From contig JAFVSN010000056.1 in assembly GCA_017503735.1 (NCBI GenBank), positions 1-64,000 of the forward strand: a stretch of DNA of 64,000 nucleotides. Direction: 5' to 3'. Made by a program: the position numbers and the translations under genes. This DNA comes from Lachnospiraceae bacterium (lineage in GTDB: Bacteria > Bacillota > Clostridia > Lachnospirales > Lachnospiraceae). Shown here piece by piece: positions 22,890-34,855 of this stretch. Numbering within the stretch: position 1 is the first letter of the stretch; every line of letters begins with the position of its first letter. A model generated the notes under the pieces. That model saw nothing but the letters and a program-made list of their open reading frames with translations. It was not told the DNA's origin and did no database searches.

Positions 22890-23228
22890 ATGAATTTGCT
22901 GGAAATCGAATCCCTTACCGAAGATACCGGTCATCGAGTTAAGCAAAATCTGAAATTTAAAACCGGAAAATTTATCTGGCGTGTACGTTTCACCGCCCCG
23001 CTAAATCCGGCCACGGTCAATAATGTAAATATGTTTGTTACCGCGGAAGAAAGCGGCTCCATTTTACGCACTCTCATTCGCTACAATTCCGAAACGCATG
23101 AGGTGGAAATCGAACCGCTGGATCCTTATGCTAAAAACACCGCATATATTTTAAATGTCACAAAAAATGTTCGTTCCAAGGGTGGTCAACATTTAAAAGA
23201 CGAAATTAAAATCAAGTTTATCGTATAG
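22890..23228 (+). CDS. Small protein with SbsA Ig-like (Big_5) fold
   Basis: A 112-residue protein: after about 25 residues a single beta-sandwich-like domain follows, with FTAPLNPATVNNVNMFVTAE, an exposed-loop region and LDPYAKNTAYILNVTKNVRSKGGQHLKD, the pattern of SbsA Ig-like domains. Such domains are usually extracellular repeats, but this protein has no signal peptide and stands alone. GGAGAA precedes the ATG, and a good promoter lies upstream. The last 11 bp overlap the convergent TPR/P-loop gene. Its role is unknown. Confidence 0.65.
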   Translation: MNLLEIESLTEDTGHRVKQNLKFKTGKFIWRVRFTAPLNPATVNNVNMFVTAEESGSILRTLIRYNSETHEVEIEPLDPYAKNTAYILNVTKNVRSKGGQHLKDEIKIKFIV

Positions 23229-25185
23229 TCTCGAAATCCTCTGCCGTAAGTTCCAATACCTCTGCGGCAAGGAAGTTTCCGGCGCTTGCCATCGCGAGAA
23301 TCGTTCCCTGGTTCCGATAATCCGCGTTCGCAAGTGCTTTTTTTGTCAGTTCCATGGTGGCAGCGAGTCTTCCGCCCTTTTGCTCTACCCGGGTCAGATA
23401 TTCGATTTTCTGTTTCAGACACTGTTCCGCCTCAGCACCGATCCGGTAATCCTGCTCCTCAATGTATTCCAACGCAAATCCCATTAATTCTTTGCTGTCA
23501 TACTTCGGTAGATGTACGCGGTTATTAAACACACGGTTACATTCCGCGCTGTTACGAAGCAAACGGCTGATTGCATTTGCGTTGTCTTCTAAAATTACCG
23601 TTCCGAGAACGTTCGTGTGCTGAATGAACTCCAATAAAGATGCAACGGTTTCTTCCGTCATCATTCCGGCGCCTTCTACAATCAGACAAACATCCTTAAG
23701 CTGTTCCTTTTTCTCGAATAAATTCATCTGATTCAGCCGATCCCCGCTTATCTTTGCCACACGAGGTGTCTTTACATAAGACAGCTCATACAAAAGCTTT
23801 GCAAGGTAGGTTCCCAAGGTAGTTTTTCCACTTTTTTTCTCACCGGTAATAATCAGGCAATGACATTTTTTCCTCACCGTTACCACTACTTCCAGCATGC
23901 GTACCAATTGTTTCCGTACCCGTTCGATACGTCCGAATTCATGCAATACCTCTTCAAATACAATTCCCTTTTCGGAAAGACGTCCGGAGAGTTCTTTTCC
24001 GAGCGCGGAAATTTCCTGCACCGGCTCTTCCGGTTCCTTTTCGGCTTCCTTTTCGGCTTCCTCTTCGGCTTCCGCTACCGGTTCCTCCGTCGGTGCAAAA
24101 AGAGACATTTGTTCATACGCATTCCGTTCTTCCTGAATATATAACGTTTCCTGTTCTTCCGGCTCCTCCGGTTCCTCCTGCACTTCTACCGTGACATCTT
24201 CTTCCCACATCGGTTCCTCTGTCTCGGTTGCCGCCACTTCTTCCAAGGTCTCTTCCAAATCTTCCAACGCGTCCTCAGGCATCGGTTCCGGTAATTCTTC
24301 CTCATCCAAACTTTCTATATTACGCCAGATGCTTTCCAATGCCAAATGTTCTTCCTCGTCCAAACGACGCTGTTCCTCCTCTTCGCGGAGACGCAGTTCT
24401 TCCTCACGAAGACGCTCTTCCTCTTCACGAAGACGCTGCTCTTCCTCACGAAGACGTGCTTCTTCCTCTCTGCGGCGCATCTCTTCCTCTTCTGCCAGTC
24501 GTCTTTGTTCTTCTTCAAAGGCTTTTCGCTCTTCTTCTTCTCTTGCTCTGCGTTCTTCCGCTTCCTGTACCCTGCGTTCCGCTTCCATACGGATATCTTC
24601 TACGGACAGTTCCCCTCGGTAATAGGCTTGCAACGCTTTTGCACGCTCCACATAAGTCCCTTCCCCGAACCATAAAATCAGGTCTGCACACTCTGCCATA
24701 CACTCCTGTTCCCGACCCAGCTTATGATACAGTTTTGCCAGCTCGTATGCATACTTCTCTGTATACTCTTCTGCCTTTAATGTCTGCAGAATCGGCAATA
24801 ATTCCGCATCCGGACGATGCTTCTGTCGTCCGATCCGGTACTCGTAAATATAATTACGCGGGTCCCCTCCGGAGATTTTTCCGTACTGCTTTAAGTATTC
24901 TTCTGCCTCCTCCGGGTTCTTTTGGGCAAGACAAATTTCCATTAATTCTTCCAACACACGCCAGGAAGCTTTTTTCTCATAAATGCGCAGCAGATATTCC
25001 TTAGCCATAGCAAAATCTCCGCACTTACGGTACACGGCGGAAAGCAAAAACAAGTCTGAACTGTCCTTTATTTTCTCTTTCCGGATACTATCCGCCACTT
25101 CTTTTGCCGCCTCATATTCCTCCGATTCGAGCAATGACCGGATTTCTTCCAATCGGATAATAGTCCGATAGCGTTCCATTCCCAT
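23218..25185 (-). CDS. TPR - coiled coil - P-loop ATPase protein, last gene of the condensin-like cluster
   Basis: A 655-residue protein. About residues 1-200 are helical TPR-like repeats (SLLESEEYEAAKEVADSI, CGDFAMAKEYLLRIYEKK). About 205-310 are an almost pure Glu/Arg coiled coil (EEERLREEELRLREEE). An acidic linker runs to about 420. A C-terminal AAA-like ATPase (about 440-655) has Walker A ITGEKKSGKTT and a Walker-B-like VCLIVEGAG. An in-frame start lies 25 codons upstream, but the ATG at 25185 is preceded by GGAGGTG, which overlaps the end of the SMC-like gene; the two genes are 1 bp apart. A loader or regulator of the SMC partner is inferred from context only. Confidence 0.75.
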   Translation of the reverse strand: MGMERYRTIIRLEEIRSLLESEEYEAAKEVADSIRKEKIKDSSDLFLLSAVYRKCGDFAMAKEYLLRIYEKKASWRVLEELMEICLAQKNPEEAEEYLKQYGKISGGDPRNYIYEYRIGRQKHRPDAELLPILQTLKAEEYTEKYAYELAKLYHKLGREQECMAECADLILWFGEGTYVERAKALQAYYRGELSVEDIRMEAERRVQEAEERRAREEEERKAFEEEQRRLAEEEEMRRREEEARLREEEQRLREEEERLREEELRLREEEEQRRLDEEEHLALESIWRNIESLDEEELPEPMPEDALEDLEETLEEVAATETEEPMWEEDVTVEVQEEPEEPEEQETLYIQEERNAYEQMSLFAPTEEPVAEAEEEAEKEAEKEPEEPVQEISALGKELSGRLSEKGIVFEEVLHEFGRIERVRKQLVRMLEVVVTVRKKCHCLIITGEKKSGKTTLGTYLAKLLYELSYVKTPRVAKISGDRLNQMNLFEKKEQLKDVCLIVEGAGMMTEETVASLLEFIQHTNVLGTVILEDNANAISRLLRNSAECNRVFNNRVHLPKYDSKELMGFALEYIEEQDYRIGAEAEQCLKQKIEYLTRVEQKGGRLAATMELTKKALANADYRNQGTILAMASAGNFLAAEVLELTAEDFETIR

Positions 25186-25186
25186 A

Positions 25187-28100
25187 CTACACCTCCGAAA
25201 TATCCAAGCTTGTCTGTTCAAACTGTAACGGAATGAATTCCACCGAATCCGCTTCCACACGACTGCAATAGTCCACTACAACCGTCTGTTGTCTGCCATC
25301 AATTAACTTCTGTCCCAACACATAATTCACATCAAATCGTCCGGTAATCGCCGGGGTAGTGCCTCGCGCCGGTACAATTAACTGGACATGATTTGCACGC
25401 AATAATTCAAAAATCGGCTCCCAGATATACACATCTTTTGCGGCACCGAACGGGTTGTCGATAAAAATAACCTTTCGAAGTCCCGCCGCATCTCCGGTCG
25501 GAGAATAGATGCTGGAGATATAATTGATTACCGCAATCAAAAACTGGATATAAATACCCTGGGACTGTCCCGTACTTCCTACCGCTTCTTCATAACGCAA
25601 ATGCCTGCTCTGTTCCTTAATACGTTCTCTCTTATATAACAGCAGGCGAATTGCATTCATATCGGACACAATCACCGAAAAGAGTTTCTTATAAGATAAC
25701 GCGCTCCGGATATACTTCATCCGCTCCGCCGGATTTGCAATCCCGTCTACTGCCTGAATCACTTCGTCAATATATCCGGTCATCCGTTCTTTGAAAAACT
25801 CTTCCTTCACATACGGAATCTGGAGAGAAATCATCGGAATCTGCTCTCCGTCCAGCATAATCTTAGACAGCTTCGGCAAACGCTCCAAATCCGCCTTGAT
25901 ATTCAAACAACGCTGCAGACACTGATTCTCAAAGTTCTCTTTTATGGTTTCCAAATCTCCCAGCCCGGCCTCGATTCTGGTCCGCTCAAGCTGCAAACAT
26001 TCTCTTACTTCTCCCAGTCCGCGGACCACTTCTTCCGTTTCCCTTCCGCTTCGCGGCATCATCACGCTTCCGCCGATTTCTTCCGCCAAAGCCTGTGCGC
26101 CCAACAGTTGTAAAGTCTCCATGGTCTTTTGACGGTTCCGGTAAAATTCTTCCTGTCTCTTTAATAATTCTTTTCCGCAAGCCGCATAACGTTCTCTCGC
26201 TTCTTTATAACAGTCTGCCAGACGTACATTGTTTTCCAGACGTCCACATTCTTTTGTGAGGCTTTCCGTTCCTTCAAACATCCGGTCAATCTCGTTTCGA
26301 ATCACCGTATATGCCGACAATTCCTCATAAAGTTCCGCCTGGGAGGCTTTCTTTTCCGCAATCTCCTTTTGTTTCTCCGCAATTTGCAGCCTTCTTTTTG
26401 AAATAAATGAGGTCAACGCCTCTCCTGTCAGTTCCACCGGACAATATTCTCCGTATTTTTCCGTAATCGCAGCCTCTGCCTGACTGTTCTTTCCTTCCAG
26501 ACGATACAATTTCTCCTGTAATTGCTTTATCTGACGCTCCAGTTGCTCCGTTTCCGCAGTCAGCTCCGAAATCTCTTCCCCACGTCTTGTCAGCTCCGCC
26601 TCAGAGGTCTCGTATATTTCATTCTTTTCATATAACTCCGACAGTTCCGCAACACTAAATCCCTTATTCCGAATGTTACGGAGCAAACGATTCATGGCAG
26701 ATACATAAGAATCCAACAACCGTTGCTTATCCTCCAGGGAAGAAGCTTCCGTATGCAATGCCGCAATCTTTCCGTCAATCTGCACCGCCAACTCCCAAAT
26801 ATCATAGGAAACCGAAGCTGCCTCTCCTTCTGCATCATATATGGCATAGCTTTCCCAGTTATGCTCCAATTCTTCTTTGCGGGAACGTAAGTTTTCCGTT
26901 TCGGCAACCTTCGCCTCATATTCGGCTTTTAAGGTTTCTGCCATTTCCGCTGCTTCTCTGCTCCACTCCAGCAAACGCTCCTTCTTCTTGGCATACTCTG
27001 CCACAGCCTGCTCTTTTTCTTCTGCCTGATGATTTAACATCGCAAGGGAACGATAAACAAAACTATCCTTCTCTGCCTCCGCAATGGTTTTTGTGCAGCT
27101 TTCCTGTTCGGCGCAAATTGCCTCCAGACGCGCACCCAAATCGGATAATTTCTCCTTTTCTTCCCGCAGACGCTCCTGCAGATTTTCTTCTGTCTCTTCG
27201 GTTCCGTACTCGGTTTTCTTTGCATACATACTTTCATAATAATTCTTAACAAACCCGGTTAAAAACTCCTCGTCTTCTTCGTATGCTTCCAACAAACCGG
27301 TCAAACGCCGGATTCCGTACTCTGCCTCTTCCTCCTGTTTGGAAAGACGCAGGATTTCTTTCTGTCTTGCCTTTTCCTCAAACAATGCCGCCCCGTCTTT
27401 TACACAAAGCAACATCTGCTCCCGATGAAACAGTTCCTTTCCCGCCCGCACGGATTCCATGCGTAATAACGGTACCATCTCTCCTTCCGGAATACACTCC
27501 GCCAAAAGGTGATCGTCAAATACCGTTTCAAATCCTTCCGTAATTACCGCAAAGGGCAGACCCGCAAAACGCTTCAAAAGCTCTTCCTGTTCTTCCTTTG
27601 ATTTGCTCTGCAAATACTCTACTCCGGTCATTGCTTTCTTTTTATGCCGGGTACAAATATAGTCCTTTACGGTTTGTGCCGCTTCGGTAGAAGAAAACAG
27701 TTCTCCTGCCTCTATCGCCTGTCTTCTCGCCTTTGCCAGACGCATCTGTTCGGACAACCGGGTCATTTCTCCATAGGCCTCCCGGCAACGGGTACGCACT
27801 GCAGTCCGAAGTGCACGGTAGTCCTTTTCTCCGTATGCTTCCGCTAATTTATCCGCACGTTGCTTTTCTTCCGCAAGGGCTTCTTTTTCGGCATTCTGCT
27901 CCGCCACCGTATCCCGGAATCTCTGTAAATTCCCTTCGGCACGATGTACCGCAAGAATCGCATCCTCTTTTTCTTTGTTTAATTTCTCCGCCTCTTCCTT
28001 TAATGCGGTTAATTTGAGCGTTGCGGCCGCGCTGCGTTCTCTGCCTTCCTTTTCATAGGAAGACGCATCCTCCGCAAGCAAAAGTCCTACCGCATCCTTC

Positions 28101-29581
28101 TGCTCTTTTATTCTTGCATAGAGTGCAGACAACTCCTTTTTGGTCTGCTCTGTCATGATTTCTAATACAGCTGCTTCTTTTTCTACATCTTTTTTGGAAT
28201 TTTCAGCCGTTTTATATTTCATCAACGCACCGGCAGAAGCGCTTTCTGCCTTACGAAAGCTTTCTTCCAGCTCCTGCCCGTATTGCTCTTTTCGTTCCTT
28301 ATATGCCCGCACCAGCGCAGAGATTTCTTCCTGAAGTCCGCTTTGTCCGGTCATTGCCTGCAACGTAACCGCAGTTTCATCCCGCTTCTTCTTTTCTTCC
28401 AAGTATTCCAAATAGTCGTTGGCACATTCCTTTTTCTTAAGTAATTCTGCCAATGACTCTTTTCGCTCGTTCTTCTGTTCTTTTTCTGACGTTAAAAGTT
28501 CCACCTGCGTTGCGTATTCTTTTGCCAGTTCCCGATCCTCGGAAATCCCGGCAGAGAGAAGCTCTGCCTCATAAACACGCAATTCCTCTGTAGCTTTTGC
28601 TTCTTCCTGTTTTAATTCTTCTACCGCACCTTCCCGGCCGTCCAGATAATGCGTTGCCGCATTATAAATCCGGTTCAGCTGTGTTTTTGCTTCCTGTTGC
28701 TCCCCGTACACGGAACCCAACAACTCCACCCGGGAAGAAAACTCGGACAATACCTCTTCCTGACGGTCAAAGCTACGCATAGCGTCCTTTTGTTTCGCCA
28801 GTTCCACCAACTTGTCCTTCATATCCAAAAGGGTCTGGGACATCGTGTCTTCCGTATCCTCTTTCCCTGCTTTTCTGCGGAAAGAAGTACCCAGAATCTC
28901 CTCGATTAACAAATCTTCCACCACTTTCCGGGTGGTTTTATAATTGCTCTCAAAATAGGTACGGACATGTCCTTCCGTCTTATTGATTCCGCGGATAATC
29001 TCCCATTCGCTTTCATAAATCCCGTAGTCCGCAATAAAATTCTGATATTCACCCTTTCGGTCAAAAATCCGCACAACCAAAGAATTATCACGTTCCAATT
29101 CTTTCAGATAACGGCGAAGTCCGCTATAGGTAATTCGCTCTTTTTCTTTTACCAACGGAAGATTCCGAATATCGTTTGCGTTATACTCCCGATAAAAAAT
29201 ACAATAGTTAAAATACTCGATGGAGGCAGTATCCTTCGTCTCGCCTTCTACCTCCGCTGCCTTTCTGGCACAAAATCCCGTGGTCATATATTGAAAACCG
29301 TTCTCTATGTTCTCATCGTCCAGCTTCCATTCAATTAGGGAATGAATCGTCTTACTTCCCTCTCCGGTACGGAACAATTTTTCAATCGGTTGTTTCTCAT
29401 CCAAGGTACAATTCGGAATCACATTCTGTAACAAAAGCAGCATAAGTACACTTTTTCCGCCGCCGTTTGCAAGGTCATATAAGGTATTTCCGCAAAACGG
29501 CTTCATCAAAAAGTCATCATAAGCCTGGGTTCCGAAATTGTATTTTACGTTATTTACACGAATACGGTTAATATGCGGCAC
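25187..29581 (-). CDS. SMC/MukB/JetC-like chromosome-segregation ATPase
   Basis: A 1464-residue SMC-like protein. The N-terminal head has the Walker A LANGGGKS (37-44); two long coiled-coil arms flank a globular hinge-like segment (about 620-770, with LPFAVITEGFETVF). The C-terminal head has STGQSQGIYIQF as ABC signature and VIFIDNPFGAAKD as Walker B (about 1371-1383). The residue after the Walker B Asp is Asn, where most SMC heads have the catalytic Glu. The GTG start at 29581 follows AGGAGGAG by 6 nt and overlaps the upstream gene by 14 bp. The gene order JetA-JetB-JetC indicates a Wadjet/MksBEF-type complex. Confidence 0.85.
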   Translation of the reverse strand: MPHINRIRVNNVKYNFGTQAYDDFLMKPFCGNTLYDLANGGGKSVLMLLLLQNVIPNCTLDEKQPIEKLFRTGEGSKTIHSLIEWKLDDENIENGFQYMTTGFCARKAAEVEGETKDTASIEYFNYCIFYREYNANDIRNLPLVKEKERITYSGLRRYLKELERDNSLVVRIFDRKGEYQNFIADYGIYESEWEIIRGINKTEGHVRTYFESNYKTTRKVVEDLLIEEILGTSFRRKAGKEDTEDTMSQTLLDMKDKLVELAKQKDAMRSFDRQEEVLSEFSSRVELLGSVYGEQQEAKTQLNRIYNAATHYLDGREGAVEELKQEEAKATEELRVYEAELLSAGISEDRELAKEYATQVELLTSEKEQKNERKESLAELLKKKECANDYLEYLEEKKKRDETAVTLQAMTGQSGLQEEISALVRAYKERKEQYGQELEESFRKAESASAGALMKYKTAENSKKDVEKEAAVLEIMTEQTKKELSALYARIKEQKDAVGLLLAEDASSYEKEGRERSAAATLKLTALKEEAEKLNKEKEDAILAVHRAEGNLQRFRDTVAEQNAEKEALAEEKQRADKLAEAYGEKDYRALRTAVRTRCREAYGEMTRLSEQMRLAKARRQAIEAGELFSSTEAAQTVKDYICTRHKKKAMTGVEYLQSKSKEEQEELLKRFAGLPFAVITEGFETVFDDHLLAECIPEGEMVPLLRMESVRAGKELFHREQMLLCVKDGAALFEEKARQKEILRLSKQEEEAEYGIRRLTGLLEAYEEDEEFLTGFVKNYYESMYAKKTEYGTEETEENLQERLREEKEKLSDLGARLEAICAEQESCTKTIAEAEKDSFVYRSLAMLNHQAEEKEQAVAEYAKKKERLLEWSREAAEMAETLKAEYEAKVAETENLRSRKEELEHNWESYAIYDAEGEAASVSYDIWELAVQIDGKIAALHTEASSLEDKQRLLDSYVSAMNRLLRNIRNKGFSVAELSELYEKNEIYETSEAELTRRGEEISELTAETEQLERQIKQLQEKLYRLEGKNSQAEAAITEKYGEYCPVELTGEALTSFISKRRLQIAEKQKEIAEKKASQAELYEELSAYTVIRNEIDRMFEGTESLTKECGRLENNVRLADCYKEARERYAACGKELLKRQEEFYRNRQKTMETLQLLGAQALAEEIGGSVMMPRSGRETEEVVRGLGEVRECLQLERTRIEAGLGDLETIKENFENQCLQRCLNIKADLERLPKLSKIMLDGEQIPMISLQIPYVKEEFFKERMTGYIDEVIQAVDGIANPAERMKYIRSALSYKKLFSVIVSDMNAIRLLLYKRERIKEQSRHLRYEEAVGSTGQSQGIYIQFLIAVINYISSIYSPTGDAAGLRKVIFIDNPFGAAKDVYIWEPIFELLRANHVQLIVPARGTTPAITGRFDVNYVLGQKLIDGRQQTVVVDYCSRVEADSVEFIPLQFEQTSLDISEV

Positions 29582-30302
29582 CGTCTTCTCCTCCTTTGCT
29601 GCTTCGCATCTGCAATTCGTACAGTCTGCCCTTTTCTTCCTCAAAATACCTTCGGATCAAAGCGTGCATCCGTCCCGTCGGATAATACCGTTCTCCCACC
29701 TCCGTAAACAGGCCCTGGGATACCATGAAATTAAACACCAACTTAACAAAACCGCTTTTGGACCCTCTTCCGGCACGTACCCCCTGGGTATCCTCGTTTG
29801 CAATCACCGGCAGTTCATCCCAGGAAATCGCAAGGGCTTTAAAACTCGTCTCCTCCGGTGTTTCACTGGAAAACCGGTGTAACTCCGACACCATTCCCGC
29901 AAGGGCATGATTGGTGGCTTCCATCAAATCTTCCAGCTTAATGTATTCTCTGTAGTTGTAAGTGGCGGAATCCTGATAAAAACAAGCTGCCGCCTGATAA
30001 ATCAAGTAATAGCAGAGGTATAATTCTTTATTTAAGCGCAATCCCATCATGCGCTTTAAATCTTCATTGGAATATCCGAATACACGGTTTTTTTCTCCTA
30101 CTGCAACATATAGCGCATAATTATACTCATACACCCGTAAATTCAATTTCTTTAACATCAACTCCAAGGCATCGCTTACTTCCCCGGACTCATGATATGC
30201 TTCGTACAATCCTGCATTCTTTCCGCCTTTTGCCTCCACCGGTTCCCCGACCAAAAGGGCGGCCAAAAGCTCCGTTGCTTTTTCTAAGCTCTTTTGTTCC
30301 AT
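29568..30302 (-). CDS. MukE/JetB-like winged-helix partner (DUF6063 type)
   Basis: A 244-residue soluble helical protein with no membrane helix. Segments ALELMLKKLNLRVYEYNYALYV and LVFNFMVSQGLFTEVGERYYPTGRMHALIRRYFEEEKG look like winged-helix units, as in MukE/MksE/JetB kite-type subunits. I match it to DUF6063 from memory. It lies 2 bp after the JetA-like gene and overlaps the SMC-like gene by 14 bp, so the three are almost certainly co-translated and form one complex. Confidence 0.7.
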   Translation of the reverse strand: MEQKSLEKATELLAALLVGEPVEAKGGKNAGLYEAYHESGEVSDALELMLKKLNLRVYEYNYALYVAVGEKNRVFGYSNEDLKRMMGLRLNKELYLCYYLIYQAAACFYQDSATYNYREYIKLEDLMEATNHALAGMVSELHRFSSETPEETSFKALAISWDELPVIANEDTQGVRAGRGSKSGFVKLVFNFMVSQGLFTEVGERYYPTGRMHALIRRYFEEEKGRLYELQMRSSKGGEDGAAY

Positions 30303-30304
30303 TC

Positions 30305-31870
30305 TTATCCCGCCTTTTCTTCTTTTATCCGTTCAAATACAATCTCGGTTGTCACGAAGGTTGCATCCCTCTCCAACCCTGCAATCCGGTGTACCAGTTC
30401 TTCGGCTTCCGGTTTCATTACCAGGCAAAATTTCAGGCCGGCGTATTTTTTCATTGCCGGTTCCGCAAGCAATTCTGCAAGGATTCCTTCAAAAAAAGTA
30501 TCCTGCTTTTTCATTACCTGTTCTAAATCGTACTCTCTTTTTTGACAAACATGAACCAGAAACGAATAATAATCACTGTTTTTAAATATTCCGTCAAAAA
30601 ACTTTAACTCCAGTTTACGGTTCAGAGCAGATAGTGTTACCCGTTCCGTAACCGACAATTCTTCAAACAAAGTCTTTACAATTGCCCCGTAGTTTCCGGA
30701 AATACGCTCGTCTTCCACTTCATCATCAAAACGGTACATCTCTTCCTTTGCCTCTTCTACCGTCTCCGCGGTTTCACCCGCCTCCGGAGGAAGGGATAAA
30801 AGTTCATCGGTCTGTAGCAAAGTAAATTGTTTCCGTAACTTCGGAAACAACAGAGGCTCCACTAAGTGCGCCAGCATAGTTACATCCTGTGCTTCCTCTG
30901 CCGCCGCCACAAACCCGCGGAAATCAAAAGCACCTCGCAATCTGCTATACTTATATTTGTGAATCATCTCATCGGCACGCACCTGTAAATCCATACAATC
31001 GGAAAGTAATTCTCCGTGATTTGCCATTGCCTTTTTCAATTCCGTTTCCAACTGGTAAATCCCCCTAAGGGATTCCATATCCTTTGCGCCGTCCGTCGTT
31101 TCTTCCGCTTTCGCCCGCGCCCGCTCCATTAACTCCATATTGTGGGAAAACAGCTTCTGTTCTTCCGTAAACCAGCGCATTCCGGTGCGGTTAAACTCCT
31201 CTAACGCCTTTACTCCGTCAAACACGTTGCTTCCCAACAAAGCAAGCACTTCTCTTTTTTGCAATCGCAGACGGTTTACTTCACTGTTAATCCGTCGGAT
31301 GACATCAATACCGCCCTTGAAATTCTTTGTATGTATCATCTTTTCCAACAAAATCTGCTGGATATTAATCTTGCTTTCGTCCCGGATTTCCTTTGTGTCC
31401 AGATAAAACTCGATGGCATCCGCCGTTACGGTATAAAGCACCGTGCTTCCGGAAAGGGTAGCATCTATCAACTTCATCCGTACGGATGCCGTCGCCTTTT
31501 TCACCGGATCGAAGTATTCCATTACAAACGGTTTTCCGTCATTTTTTAATTTATCAAAAATATAATCAATCAATTCTTTTTCTTCTTCTGCCGGCAAAGA
31601 AAGAGAAAAATCCCTTGTCAAAACACCGGATAAAAAAGAAACAATCTCCGGATATTGCACCGCTCTGTCGTTAAACTGATTCTCTTCGATGAAAAACCGG
31701 AGAACCGCAAGGGTAATATAGCCCATATCCAGAGAGGCATACTTTCCTTCCTTAAACAGGTGGAACGCGGTATTTTGCAGGCAGAAAAACGGATAGTATC
31801 GTCTTAAATTCCGCATACGGTCGCCATGAAAATCTATGATGTCATGCAACATCTGATAACTGCCGTCCAT
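30305..31870 (-). CDS. JetA/MukF-like kleisin subunit (DUF5716 type)
   Basis: A 521-residue helical protein, in size and neighbourhood a counterpart of JetA (DUF5716), the kleisin of Wadjet complexes. The N-terminus (MDGSYQMLHDIIDFHGDRMRNLRRYYPFF) is followed by winged-helix-like parts (about 40-180), long helices (about 190-340, with METELKKAMANHGEL-like heptads) and a C-terminal helical domain including KQDTFFEGILAELLAEPAM. AAGGAGGACC precedes the ATG. It follows the cNMP-binding-like gene by 35 bp. The family match comes from memory; a profile search would settle it. Confidence 0.75.
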   Translation of the reverse strand: MDGSYQMLHDIIDFHGDRMRNLRRYYPFFCLQNTAFHLFKEGKYASLDMGYITLAVLRFFIEENQFNDRAVQYPEIVSFLSGVLTRDFSLSLPAEEEKELIDYIFDKLKNDGKPFVMEYFDPVKKATASVRMKLIDATLSGSTVLYTVTADAIEFYLDTKEIRDESKINIQQILLEKMIHTKNFKGGIDVIRRINSEVNRLRLQKREVLALLGSNVFDGVKALEEFNRTGMRWFTEEQKLFSHNMELMERARAKAEETTDGAKDMESLRGIYQLETELKKAMANHGELLSDCMDLQVRADEMIHKYKYSRLRGAFDFRGFVAAAEEAQDVTMLAHLVEPLLFPKLRKQFTLLQTDELLSLPPEAGETAETVEEAKEEMYRFDDEVEDERISGNYGAIVKTLFEELSVTERVTLSALNRKLELKFFDGIFKNSDYYSFLVHVCQKREYDLEQVMKKQDTFFEGILAELLAEPAMKKYAGLKFCLVMKPEAEELVHRIAGLERDATFVTTEIVFERIKEEKAG

Positions 31871-31905
31871 ACTGGTCCTCCTTCCTGCTATTCTCTGTCC
31901 GTCCT

Positions 31906-34185
31906 TTAATTGTCATGATAATACGCAAGTGTATCCAGCAATTCCTGCGGAAGTTCGATTCCGTTTTTGGTCAAAGCATGATTTCGTAACTCTGTCTCAC
32001 GCAGCTTTCTTGCTGTTTCTCTCCGATGTCTGGCCATTGCTTCCTCAAAGGCCGGTTGCTGTGCCAGCTGGGCACGAATCTTTCCTTCAAACGGACAATA
32101 GGTTGCCAAAATCTCACGTGCCACTTTATTTAACTTCATGGCTCCGCTTGATTCGTTTTTCATCCATACTTCATAATCCATGGCAAACACTTCGCGGTAA
32201 TTGTTCTTTCCCTTTTGCAACTGTGCCTTAACCCGTTCTTTTCGTTCCTCCGAAATATCTCGGTTCTTTTTATAGTACATCAAATAGTCCGTGTACTCCG
32301 AAGTCAGAGACTTAATCTGTATGTTATTCCATGCGGCACCCTGTATGGTACGGCAAAGTTCCCAACGATACCTTCCGCAAACACGAATCAGTAAATCATC
32401 TATGGAAACCTCCGCAAACATCGGCAACAAAAAACGCCCCGGTGTATCACGCCGACGACAGCTGATATCCTGCCATAACACGCTCTTGCTTCCCATGGTC
32501 GGGAATAAAATAATATCCGGCAGTACCTCTGCCATACGGTATTCTTTTTCGATTCCCAATTCTTTGTTCATGTACAAAAATTCCCGGTAAAACAGGGAAT
32601 AGTCCACCCGACGAAGCTTGTCCACAGAGGCCTGTACCGTGCTTTTGGACAGGAAGGACCGGGCCGGGTCTCCCGCCAACAATTCCTCATATAAAAACGG
32701 AACGAAAATACTGAGTTGCCCGTTTACCAGACGATGGTTGTACCGGAACAGGTTTTGTATCTCATAGTGCAGACGCTCGTCATAATCCTTTAACTTTGCC
32801 CGCTCTTCTTCTTCGGTAATCTGCCCGCTCTTACGAAGGTCCCGAAGCATCTCCGTATATTCCTGATCGAACTCGTTCTTTGACGGTTCCCGCTTTCCTT
32901 CATACACCCAGGAAAGCCATTCCCGAATGGAAAAAATATGACAGCCGTTTTTCTCTCCGGTCACCGGCGTAAGCTCAAGCTTCTCAAGCTCTAACATCTG
33001 GCTTCGGGAAACCAGTGTTTCATCAATAAAGCCAAAATCCAAAAACATACGAATCGGAAGCGGAATATCCGTATCCGCCATACCGTAAGTCTTCTTGAAA
33101 ATAATTTCGTATAATTGATAAAAACCGTCGGCCAACTGTCTGCGCAAACGTCTCGCGGTATCTTCCGTGGAAGTTTTATCCTCCATCGCATCAAACCGCC
33201 CCAACAGTTCGGAATATTCTTTTGTAAACTCTTCCGAAACTCCCGCAAAGGAAAAAATTTGCTCCAATGTATGCTCGCACGGCTCTTCCCCTGCCACATT
33301 CGGACCGGTTCCCGTCTTTCTGGCGGTCCGCCTCTTTTCATAACCTTCAAACGGTTCCCCGGCACATTTATCAAACAAATCCTTTAACTCGGTTAGTTTC
33401 TTTTCCGTAATCTCCTGTAATACTCCCGCTACCTTCTTCGTTTCTGCGATTGCCGTTTTTTCTTCCAACGCGCAAAAATAAAAGAACAAATTATCCGCTC
33501 CGCCGTTTATAAGCGCAGCACCTTGACGACGCAGAAACTCTCCGAGTTTTTCACACTCTGCGAATAACCAACGGATTATCTGCATCTGCTCCTCCACATG
33601 GCGAAGTACTACTTTTGTACCATGGGAAAAATAATTTTTCTGAACTTCTCCCGGCACTTTCGCCGCTTCCAAATAATATTCCATCCACGCCGGAAGCTCT
33701 GCTTCGGTTACGGTCGCCCCTGCCGCCGCCGGAAGCTCTGCTGCGCGAATTTCCTCTTCTTTACAACGCGCGCCGTACTGACGGTACAGTTCGGAAATCA
33801 CTTCCGGGAGCTTCTTTGCTTCCAGCATATAAACACTCCGGCGTGCCCACATTTCCGAAATATAACGACCGAAACAAGCCGTCATTCTGCCGCCGTATTC
33901 TTTGTTCCCTTCTAACATTGTCTGCAAATCATCCGTTGTTTTTGCCGGGAGGGCATAAACCGTCATTTCCTCCGTTGCAACACAGCTTTCTCCGTAGACT
34001 CCGGCATGTAAGTCCCAAATGCCGAGAAAATCTCCGCTTACCACAGGAATACAAAGATTGGCATTTTTCAGCACCCCTTTTCCTTTGAGTACCACAAAAA
34101 CACCCTCGAATGTTGCCCCGTTTTCAAATAAAGTTTCCCCTTTCGGTACTTGATTCATTGCATTCATCTTAATTGTAATTGCCAT
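31906..34185 (-). CDS. Protein with N-terminal cyclic-nucleotide-binding-like domain, first gene of the condensin-like cluster
   Basis: A 759-residue soluble protein. About residues 10-110 form a cNMP-binding-like beta barrel: PKGETLFENGATFEGVFVVLKGKGVL, SGDFLGIWDLHAG, then CVATEEMTVYALPA, as in CRP/EPAC domains. The typical phosphate-cassette Arg is not clearly present, so ligand binding is uncertain. The remaining 650 residues are helical and unrecognised, with Lys/Glu/Arg-rich stretches. A minus-strand TATACT lies near 34220, suggesting the operon promoter. It is not part of described Wadjet or MksBEF operons and may sense a signal for the complex. Confidence 0.7.
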   Translation of the reverse strand: MAITIKMNAMNQVPKGETLFENGATFEGVFVVLKGKGVLKNANLCIPVVSGDFLGIWDLHAGVYGESCVATEEMTVYALPAKTTDDLQTMLEGNKEYGGRMTACFGRYISEMWARRSVYMLEAKKLPEVISELYRQYGARCKEEEIRAAELPAAAGATVTEAELPAWMEYYLEAAKVPGEVQKNYFSHGTKVVLRHVEEQMQIIRWLFAECEKLGEFLRRQGAALINGGADNLFFYFCALEEKTAIAETKKVAGVLQEITEKKLTELKDLFDKCAGEPFEGYEKRRTARKTGTGPNVAGEEPCEHTLEQIFSFAGVSEEFTKEYSELLGRFDAMEDKTSTEDTARRLRRQLADGFYQLYEIIFKKTYGMADTDIPLPIRMFLDFGFIDETLVSRSQMLELEKLELTPVTGEKNGCHIFSIREWLSWVYEGKREPSKNEFDQEYTEMLRDLRKSGQITEEEERAKLKDYDERLHYEIQNLFRYNHRLVNGQLSIFVPFLYEELLAGDPARSFLSKSTVQASVDKLRRVDYSLFYREFLYMNKELGIEKEYRMAEVLPDIILFPTMGSKSVLWQDISCRRRDTPGRFLLPMFAEVSIDDLLIRVCGRYRWELCRTIQGAAWNNIQIKSLTSEYTDYLMYYKKNRDISEERKERVKAQLQKGKNNYREVFAMDYEVWMKNESSGAMKLNKVAREILATYCPFEGKIRAQLAQQPAFEEAMARHRRETARKLRETELRNHALTKNGIELPQELLDTLAYYHDN

Positions 34186-34252: not shown

Positions 34253-34855
34253 CTATTTTTCATTCTTCTTGTCATTCTTCCTTAATTCGTGAAAAAAACT
34301 CTGTAACAGTTCGCTGCACTCCTGTTCCAACACGCCTTTTGTAAATTTTACCCGATGGTTTAACCCCGGTGTGTCCAGAATATTTAATACAGATCCGGCG
34401 CAACCTGCTTTTGGATTCATGCAGCCGGCCACCACGCGCGGGATGCGCGCCTGCACAATAGCCCCCGCACACATCGGGCACGGTTCCAGTGTCACATAAA
34501 GGGTACATTCTTCCAGTCGCCAGTCTCCGAACAGTCGGCTTGCCTTCCGGATTACCGCCATTTCTGCGTGTGCCAGCGTTGTTTTGTCCGTATTCCGGCG
34601 ATTGTATCCTCTTGCCACAATTTTTCCGTCCCGGACCAGCACACACCCGATCGGCACCTCCGAAAGCTTTGCCGCTTTCTTTGCCTGCCGAAACGCTTCT
34701 TTCATAAAATGAATATCTTCCGCTTCCTGTGCCCTTTGTTGTTCAAATCGGCATTGTTCTTCCTTTTTTACTTTTTCTTCTTTTGCCTTTTGTCTGCGCA
34801 GAAAAGCTTTCTCTTTTGCTTCTCTGTCTTTTTCTCTGTTATACTTTTCTTCCAT
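34253..34855 (-). CDS. tadA: tRNA-specific adenosine deaminase
   Basis: Deaminates A34 to inosine in tRNA-Arg(ACG). The deaminase domain spans about residues 47-195, with the zinc/catalytic motifs HAEM and PCPMCAGA and the SELLQSFF C-terminus. About 45 extra N-terminal residues are a Lys/Glu/Arg-rich helix (EKDREAKEKAFLRRQKAKEE). The extension looks real, because the ATG at 34855 has GGAGA and starts at the stop codon of the GNAT gene. The two genes form an operon. Confidence 0.92.
   Translation of the reverse strand: MEEKYNREKDREAKEKAFLRRQKAKEEKVKKEEQCRFEQQRAQEAEDIHFMKEAFRQAKKAAKLSEVPIGCVLVRDGKIVARGYNRRNTDKTTLAHAEMAVIRKASRLFGDWRLEECTLYVTLEPCPMCAGAIVQARIPRVVAGCMNPKAGCAGSVLNILDTPGLNHRVKFTKGVLEQECSELLQSFFHELRKNDKKNEK

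Follow-up and report, generated by a model that had tools for sequence, protein, structure and literature searches.

A variant of the Wadjet type III system that lacks the nuclease JetD is encoded in a 64,000-nucleotide stretch of DNA from a Lachnospiraceae bacterium, positions 1 to 64,000 of contig JAFVSN010000056.1 (GenBank assembly GCA_017503735.1), which we refer to as the window. The variant is real and well supported: its core genes jetA, jetB and jetC belong to the type III families, and they share with their relatives a single branch of the JetC tree on which JetD was not seen beside jetABC. We propose, with a probability of about 0.6, that JetABC is a nuclease-free, MksBEF-like chromosomal loop extruder derived from Wadjet type III, whose JetD would have been lost early in a Lachnospiraceae clade.

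Five closely spaced minus-strand open reading frames (ORFs), reported in a preliminary description of this DNA, were confirmed in place and without internal stops by an ORF check of the window. The middle three encode the core: jetA (31870-30305, 521 residues), jetB (30302-29568, 244 residues) and jetC (29581-25187, 1464 residues from a GTG, in a frame extendable to 29644 in the longest-ORF listing). PADLOC puts all three products in Wadjet type III at near-full length, as JetA3 (PDLC00560, 658.8 bits, residues 1-516), JetB3 (PDLC00571, 311.1 bits) and the SMC ATPase JetC3 (PDLC00581, 1611.9 bits, ~1460 residues), which bears out the SMC-like core and the Wadjet/Mks kinship of the preliminary description. 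Only type III models of PADLOC match JetC at E<=0.1, models of the MksB lineage (JetC1-type) giving no match. JetB is the only one of the three above a Pfam cut-off (DUF6063, 154.6 bits), and an NCBIfam search with all five proteins of the cluster returned no family over its cut-off. JetC reaches only 18.3 bits against TIGR02168 (SMC_prok_B, canonical Smc; cut-off 567). A separate ordinary Smc is encoded in the window's genome (G000:C12), and one was found in all 26 jet-bearing genomes tested.

The window JetC keeps a complete set of SMC ATPase motifs, namely Walker A (NGGGKS), signature (STGQSQ) and Walker B (DNPFG), and among 111 rows without JetD these occur in 110, 108 and at least 103, respectively; the DNPF Walker B was caught by pattern in 12 of 27 JetD-bearing rows. 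Type III JetC proteins thus carry D-N at Walker B (DNPFG near residue 1374 of the window protein) both with and without JetD, where SMC proteins usually have D-E. Median ratios of nonsynonymous to synonymous substitution (dN/dS) in the window's genus, taken from 10-20 usable pairs of 21 per gene and rough because dS is near saturation, are 0.050 for jetA, 0.043 for jetB and 0.060 for jetC, with 0.088 and 0.11 for the first and fifth genes of the cluster; jetABC is under purifying selection in this genus. Eight of nine genus relatives have jetC, and the ninth genome is 72% complete.

The order jetA-jetB-jetC on one strand recurs in 74 of 80 named relatives; the remaining six comprise four truncated where a contig stops and two (L079, L105) that show jetB and jetC with no jetA in 4.3 and 9 kb. 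Because order and strand are so widely shared, the clustering of jetABC is not due to chance. In the window the three genes stand between two others of the same strand, the first of the cluster encoding a cNMP-domain-like protein (CNMP, 34185-31906, 759 residues) and the fifth a protein with TPR and CbbX-type AAA regions (TPRA, ~25185-23218, ~655 residues from an ATG, in a frame extendable to a GTG at 25260 in the same listing). Intergenic spacing in gene order is 35 bp, 2 bp, a 14-bp overlap and 1 bp; Shine-Dalgarno-like stretches precede jetA, jetC and the fifth gene, and a weaker one precedes jetB.

JetD across the JetC tree

The absence of JetD noted in the preliminary description extends to the whole of the window's genome, an assembly 94.6% complete in which the JetD family PF09983 has no match. 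Our PF09983 search covered 80 genomes of 102 intended, 57 from the window's clade and 23 carrying a jetC3 outside it. No clade genome (0/57) has a match on the contig that carries its jet genes, and 43 of the 57 assemblies have none anywhere. As a positive control, PF09983 matches 21 of the 23 non-clade genomes, and a purpose-built profile recovers JetD in the remaining two (L233, L234).

A JetC3 match at E<=1e-30 is present in 74 of 397 Lachnospiraceae genomes, 50 with a match above 990 bits and 26 with one at 112-190 bits (two have both), and the set above 990 bits, 50/397, is the window's clade in this family. From 168 loci examined, 25 duplicates and 5 with jetC encoding fewer than 1400 residues were dropped, leaving 138 for the JetC tree. 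The window falls in one clade of 106 rows (support 96), in none of which was JetD seen beside jetABC, 86 of them being scorable upstream. JetD-bearing rows surround this clade, the nearest being L050 (genome G039) and L117 from Clostridium vincentii, both with JetD beside jetABC. A jetD linked to the same cluster elsewhere, the case that the preliminary description had named as counting against it, therefore occurs in these rows outside the clade and in none of the 106 within it. A concatenated tree of JetA, JetB and the JetC head (38 rows) also keeps the 31 clade rows together (Shimodaira-Hasegawa-like approximate likelihood ratio 99), with two very long outgroups. Among the 138 loci, JetD and TPRA never occur together.

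Of the 32 rows outside the clade, 27 showed JetD; the five exceptions are L248 and L249, with no JetD found in ~20 kb; L230, whose genome G746 has JetD beyond the fetched stretch; and L126 and L223, which lie near contig ends. In L126 (Clostridium akagii) a phage-integrase-family gene (64-1002, opposite strand) precedes jetA, and no JetD was found in the 1.4 kb examined. Because the JetD-less members form one clade nested among JetD-bearing type III, JetD was most simply lost once, early, on the way to the Lachnospiraceae clade.

Chromosomal setting and the question of defence

The commonest neighbours of jet genes are dnaX-ybaB-recR, TPRA, tadA, aroK and malic-enzyme genes, not defence genes. 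Around the window cluster, the housekeeping neighbours of the preliminary description were recovered by Pfam. Upstream, on the same strand, are a GNAT gene and, on the left flank, a tadA-like deaminase (34253..34855, minus strand; MafB19-deam and dCMP_cyt_deam). Downstream, the right flank holds a small Big_5-domain protein on the opposite strand (22890..23228, plus strand; Big_5 1.2e-8), followed by an aroK-like shikimate kinase and an EPSP-synthase-family gene that we take to be murA-like. Upstream of jetA, recR is present in 30 of 138 rows (dnaX, ybaB and recR were confirmed by Pfam in L039). At such loci (L039, L042, L070 and others) the position before jetA that JetD occupies in the sister systems is taken by RecR. 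Both are Toprim proteins, a coincidence that may be chance or possibly a functional link. In named loci without a linked TPRA, jetC is followed by a malic-enzyme gene in 21 and a radical-SAM gene in 19 (e.g. L085, L088, L090), and this site is a further recurrent slot on the chromosome.

The same sites can be compared with and without the cassette. jetABC sits between CNMP and TPRA in 9 loci. Of 20 CNMP loci retrieved, 8 have TPRA next after CNMP and no jetABC (L261-L263, L265-L268, L270). Five of these eight have the tadA cluster no more than five genes ahead of CNMP, and six have the Big_5 cluster behind TPRA, as around jetABC in the window; a DHH-family gene, presumably pyrophosphatase-like, follows in 6, and the window lacks one. 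The gap between CNMP and TPRA is 14-260 bp in six of the loci and 763 and 1900 bp in the other two, where an ABC-ATPase gene fills it; such a gene also lies between jetC and TPRA in L064. The nine jet-linked loci have CNMP proteins that do not form a single clade (approximately unbiased test, p 0.014), although the JetC proteins of these loci all belong to one 14-row clade. On the TPRA tree, built without four linked rows (L062, L107, L109, L130), jet state needs 12 changes, 9 of them forced by starred branches.

Deletion left a direct trace at one site. Among 20 TPRA loci fetched from genomes without a clade jetC, only that of G250 (L298) has the arrangement dnaX-ybaB-recR-TPRA, with RecR identified by Pfam. 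Its recR-TPRA gap keeps a relic of the jetC 3' end (L298 4962-5099), 46 codons corresponding to residues 1440-1485 of the 1485-residue JetC of L070, with 74% identity (E 6e-15), and the TPRA of L070 is the nearest to that of G250 (support 100). Because of this relic, we conclude that the G250 lineage deleted jetABC, which makes at least one deletion of the cassette; a pristine empty site at G250 is ruled out. In a search of 40 loci without jetABC, the other 39 had no jetC relic at E<=1e-3. The whole pattern is most simply explained by an old cassette that was lost repeatedly, and repeated insertion at the same place is possible elsewhere.

Several observations weigh against a chromosomal role, and some of them suit the alternative that survives best, in which JetABC would still serve in defence, trapping or silencing circular DNA uncut or recruiting a nuclease encoded elsewhere. 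The clade is patchy, and presence in 50 of 397 family genomes would suit defence or an accessory function no less than housekeeping; the 12 changes of jet state on the TPRA tree point the same way. A JetD match was found elsewhere in 14 of the 57 clade genomes (13 over the cut-off), always on another contig, so JetD may act in trans in those 14; the assemblies, besides, are incomplete. JetC distances correlate with RpoB distances (Spearman 0.55, n=29), but JetD-bearing type III of the same family tracks RpoB at least as well (0.60, n=13), so vertical inheritance is not specifically supported and the comparison does not separate housekeeping from defence. JetABCD systems, moreover, restrict plasmids, according to a 2023 review (PMC10586767). 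Two further reservations concern the proposed machine itself: dN/dS is rough, as stated above, and the kleisin role of JetA and the KITE role of JetB rest on family names and gene order, since neither protein of type III has a PDB relative in sequence search.

Against defence stand the 43 of 57 assemblies without any JetD match and the housekeeping character of the commonest neighbours. Phage, plasmid and viral-contig collections yielded no jet relatives, a result that says little here because the JetD-bearing type III JetA used as a control was also absent from plasmids; a mobile-element origin is likewise unsupported by these searches, though with the same negative plasmid control. On balance we regard a continuing defence function as unlikely.

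CNMP and TPRA as neighbours of jetABC

The preliminary description joined all five genes into one unit and saw in the first and the fifth two extra partners of the complex, the one supplying its own signal input and the other an ATP-dependent loader. That unit dissolves on comparison: the A-B-C order recurs among relatives as given above, the five genes do not always occur together, and many genomes of the family have the first and fifth but lack the middle three. Because both are widespread where jetABC is absent, neither is a dedicated jet subunit, and either one as an effector replacing JetD is rejected for being common without jetABC. CNMP and TPRA are probably long-standing neighbours with functions of their own.

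TPRA is a near-universal Lachnospiraceae gene. A 42-row profile finds it in 382 of 397 genomes at E<=1e-15, all 50 jet genomes included, and in 376 at E<=1e-35, a level that exceeds the ~60-85 bits reached by AAA-only stretches. The C-terminal part matches CbbX (3zuh/3syk, 7.4e-23) and EccA1 (9lur, 1.7e-12), and a structure model (predicted local distance difference test, pLDDT, 83) has TPR helices at 1-185, a long helix, a long disordered linker and an alpha/beta AAA region at 388-645. TPRA therefore resembles CbbX/EccA-type proteins in its C-terminal match and N-terminal TPR, whereas the long linker sets it apart, as does the absence of a Walker A match from roughly every second jet-linked copy (found by simple pattern in 30 of 61, missing in 31, against 21 of 29 in unlinked ones), and no ESX or Rubisco genes were seen alongside. 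A TPRA-profile match at G353:C2:3255130-3257025 lies within an open frame of 2474 residues, much longer than other members.

CNMP, found in 140 of 397 Lachnospiraceae genomes, is a less certain sensor than had been supposed. The window protein matches PF00027 at E 1.5e-4 (22.1 bits, under the 27.5 cut-off), and 9 of 9 aligned relatives match the cNMP domain (best E 1.1e-8); in the PDB it comes closest to KCNH1 channel domains (E 0.003). The model shows an N-terminal beta-roll at 10-80 (block pLDDT 75-91), with residues 478-703 mostly below 50. The Glu and Arg that we take to be the phosphate-binding pair of the domain are, by eye, off their expected places in all nine rows, the Arg by one or two places in three. 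The C-terminal half (residues ~400-759) is visibly more conserved than the cNMP domain, and no Pfam family matches it above threshold. CNMP adjoins jetABC in only 4 of 50 jet genomes (G000, G001, G159, G198; contig ends could hide others), and a dedicated signal input is not supported by this distribution, by the weak domain of the window protein or by the residue pair.

A five-part machine, in which TPRA would load or remodel JetABC and CNMP would be its sensor, is on this evidence improbable. CbbX-type AAA proteins are remodellers, which speaks for it, as do the 61 of 121 scorable loci in which TPRA comes after jetC in the same orientation (<=400 bp away in 45 of the 61, with other genes or long gaps between in 16) and a correlation of 0.64 (n=21) between TPRA and JetC distances. 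CNMP is also mildly enriched with jetC: 26 of the 50 jet genomes have it, as do 114 of the remaining 347 (odds ratio 2.2, p 0.011, kinship not corrected), an association that remains weak. The numbers of carriers (376 genomes for TPRA, 140 for CNMP, 50 for the jetC clade) speak against such a machine, however, together with the eight CNMP-TPRA pairs that lack jetABC and the 31 linked TPRAs without the Walker A pattern, which also undercut an ATP-dependent loader. In one jet subclade of 40 rows, none of the 30 scorable ones has a linked TPRA.

That JetABC is a decaying remnant, drifting away after nuclease loss, is very improbable: the G250 relic shows that deletion happens and jetC of L066 is split over two frames, but NGGGKS and STGQSQ are intact in 108-110 of 111 rows, dN/dS in the genus is low, and full-length open frames persist at deep divergence.

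Proposed activity and significance

The reading we prefer, a chromosomal loop extruder without a nuclease, carries the following predictions of mechanism. Judging from the related Wadjet and Muk complexes, the JetC heads with the JetA kleisin and the JetB KITE protein would dimerise and clamp DNA, and JetABC would extrude loops by ATP hydrolysis as those complexes do. In the Wadjet model outlined in PMC10586767, JetD becomes active once extrusion around a small circle is complete. Without JetD the signal of finished extrusion would have no known outlet, and with that outlet gone the likely activity would be loop formation on chromosomal or invading DNA, JetABC organising, resolving or silencing DNA instead of cutting it, alongside the ordinary Smc. 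The complex described at first as condensin-like stands as such; its role in chromosome organisation or defence is a predicted one.

A more detailed history can be put forward tentatively, at somewhat less than even odds. A type III plasmid-restriction SMC would have been disarmed once and domesticated as a second, optional chromosome organiser, kept at core-gene loci (often behind dnaX-ybaB-recR) and lost many times. In its boldest form JetABC would work with RecFOR repair, an idea that stems from RecR, with its Toprim domain, occupying, in the recR loci, the place of the Toprim protein JetD upstream of jetA.

Compared with known systems, the clade shares with Wadjet type III the JetA3, JetB3 and JetC3 families, the A-B-C order and the DNPF Walker B, and differs in having no JetD and in its core-gene surroundings, in place of jetD-jetA-jetB-jetC. 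With MukBEF and with MksBEF lacking MksG (Pseudomonas aeruginosa) it shares a three-gene kleisin-KITE-SMC composition without a nuclease, the roles being assigned by family name, whereas its sequence lineage is another (only type III models match) and its hosts also keep an ordinary Smc. Nuclease-free members of the Wadjet group are already known: MukBEF and several others lack MksG/JetD, as described in PMC7617805. The 2023 review (PMC10586767) calls an origin of MukBEF/MksBEF from Wadjet 'tempting to speculate' and leaves it unresolved, and states that type II and III complexes still need characterising. In the open-licence literature, where the two papers that mention both Lachnospiraceae and Wadjet are by title on other subjects, we came upon none describing a type III clade without JetD, and the clade may already figure in the tree data of PMC7617805.

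The loss of JetD described here is rooted and well sampled, with JetD-bearing sisters in C. vincentii and G039. Given in addition the close pair formed by L070, which has jetABC, and G250, which retains just a jetC relic, and a named isolate with a cassette of this clade (L. phytofermentans KNHs2131, L064), a change from defence to another use is directly testable, and the JetABC clade of this gut-bacterial family may offer a favourable case of defence machinery put to a different purpose.

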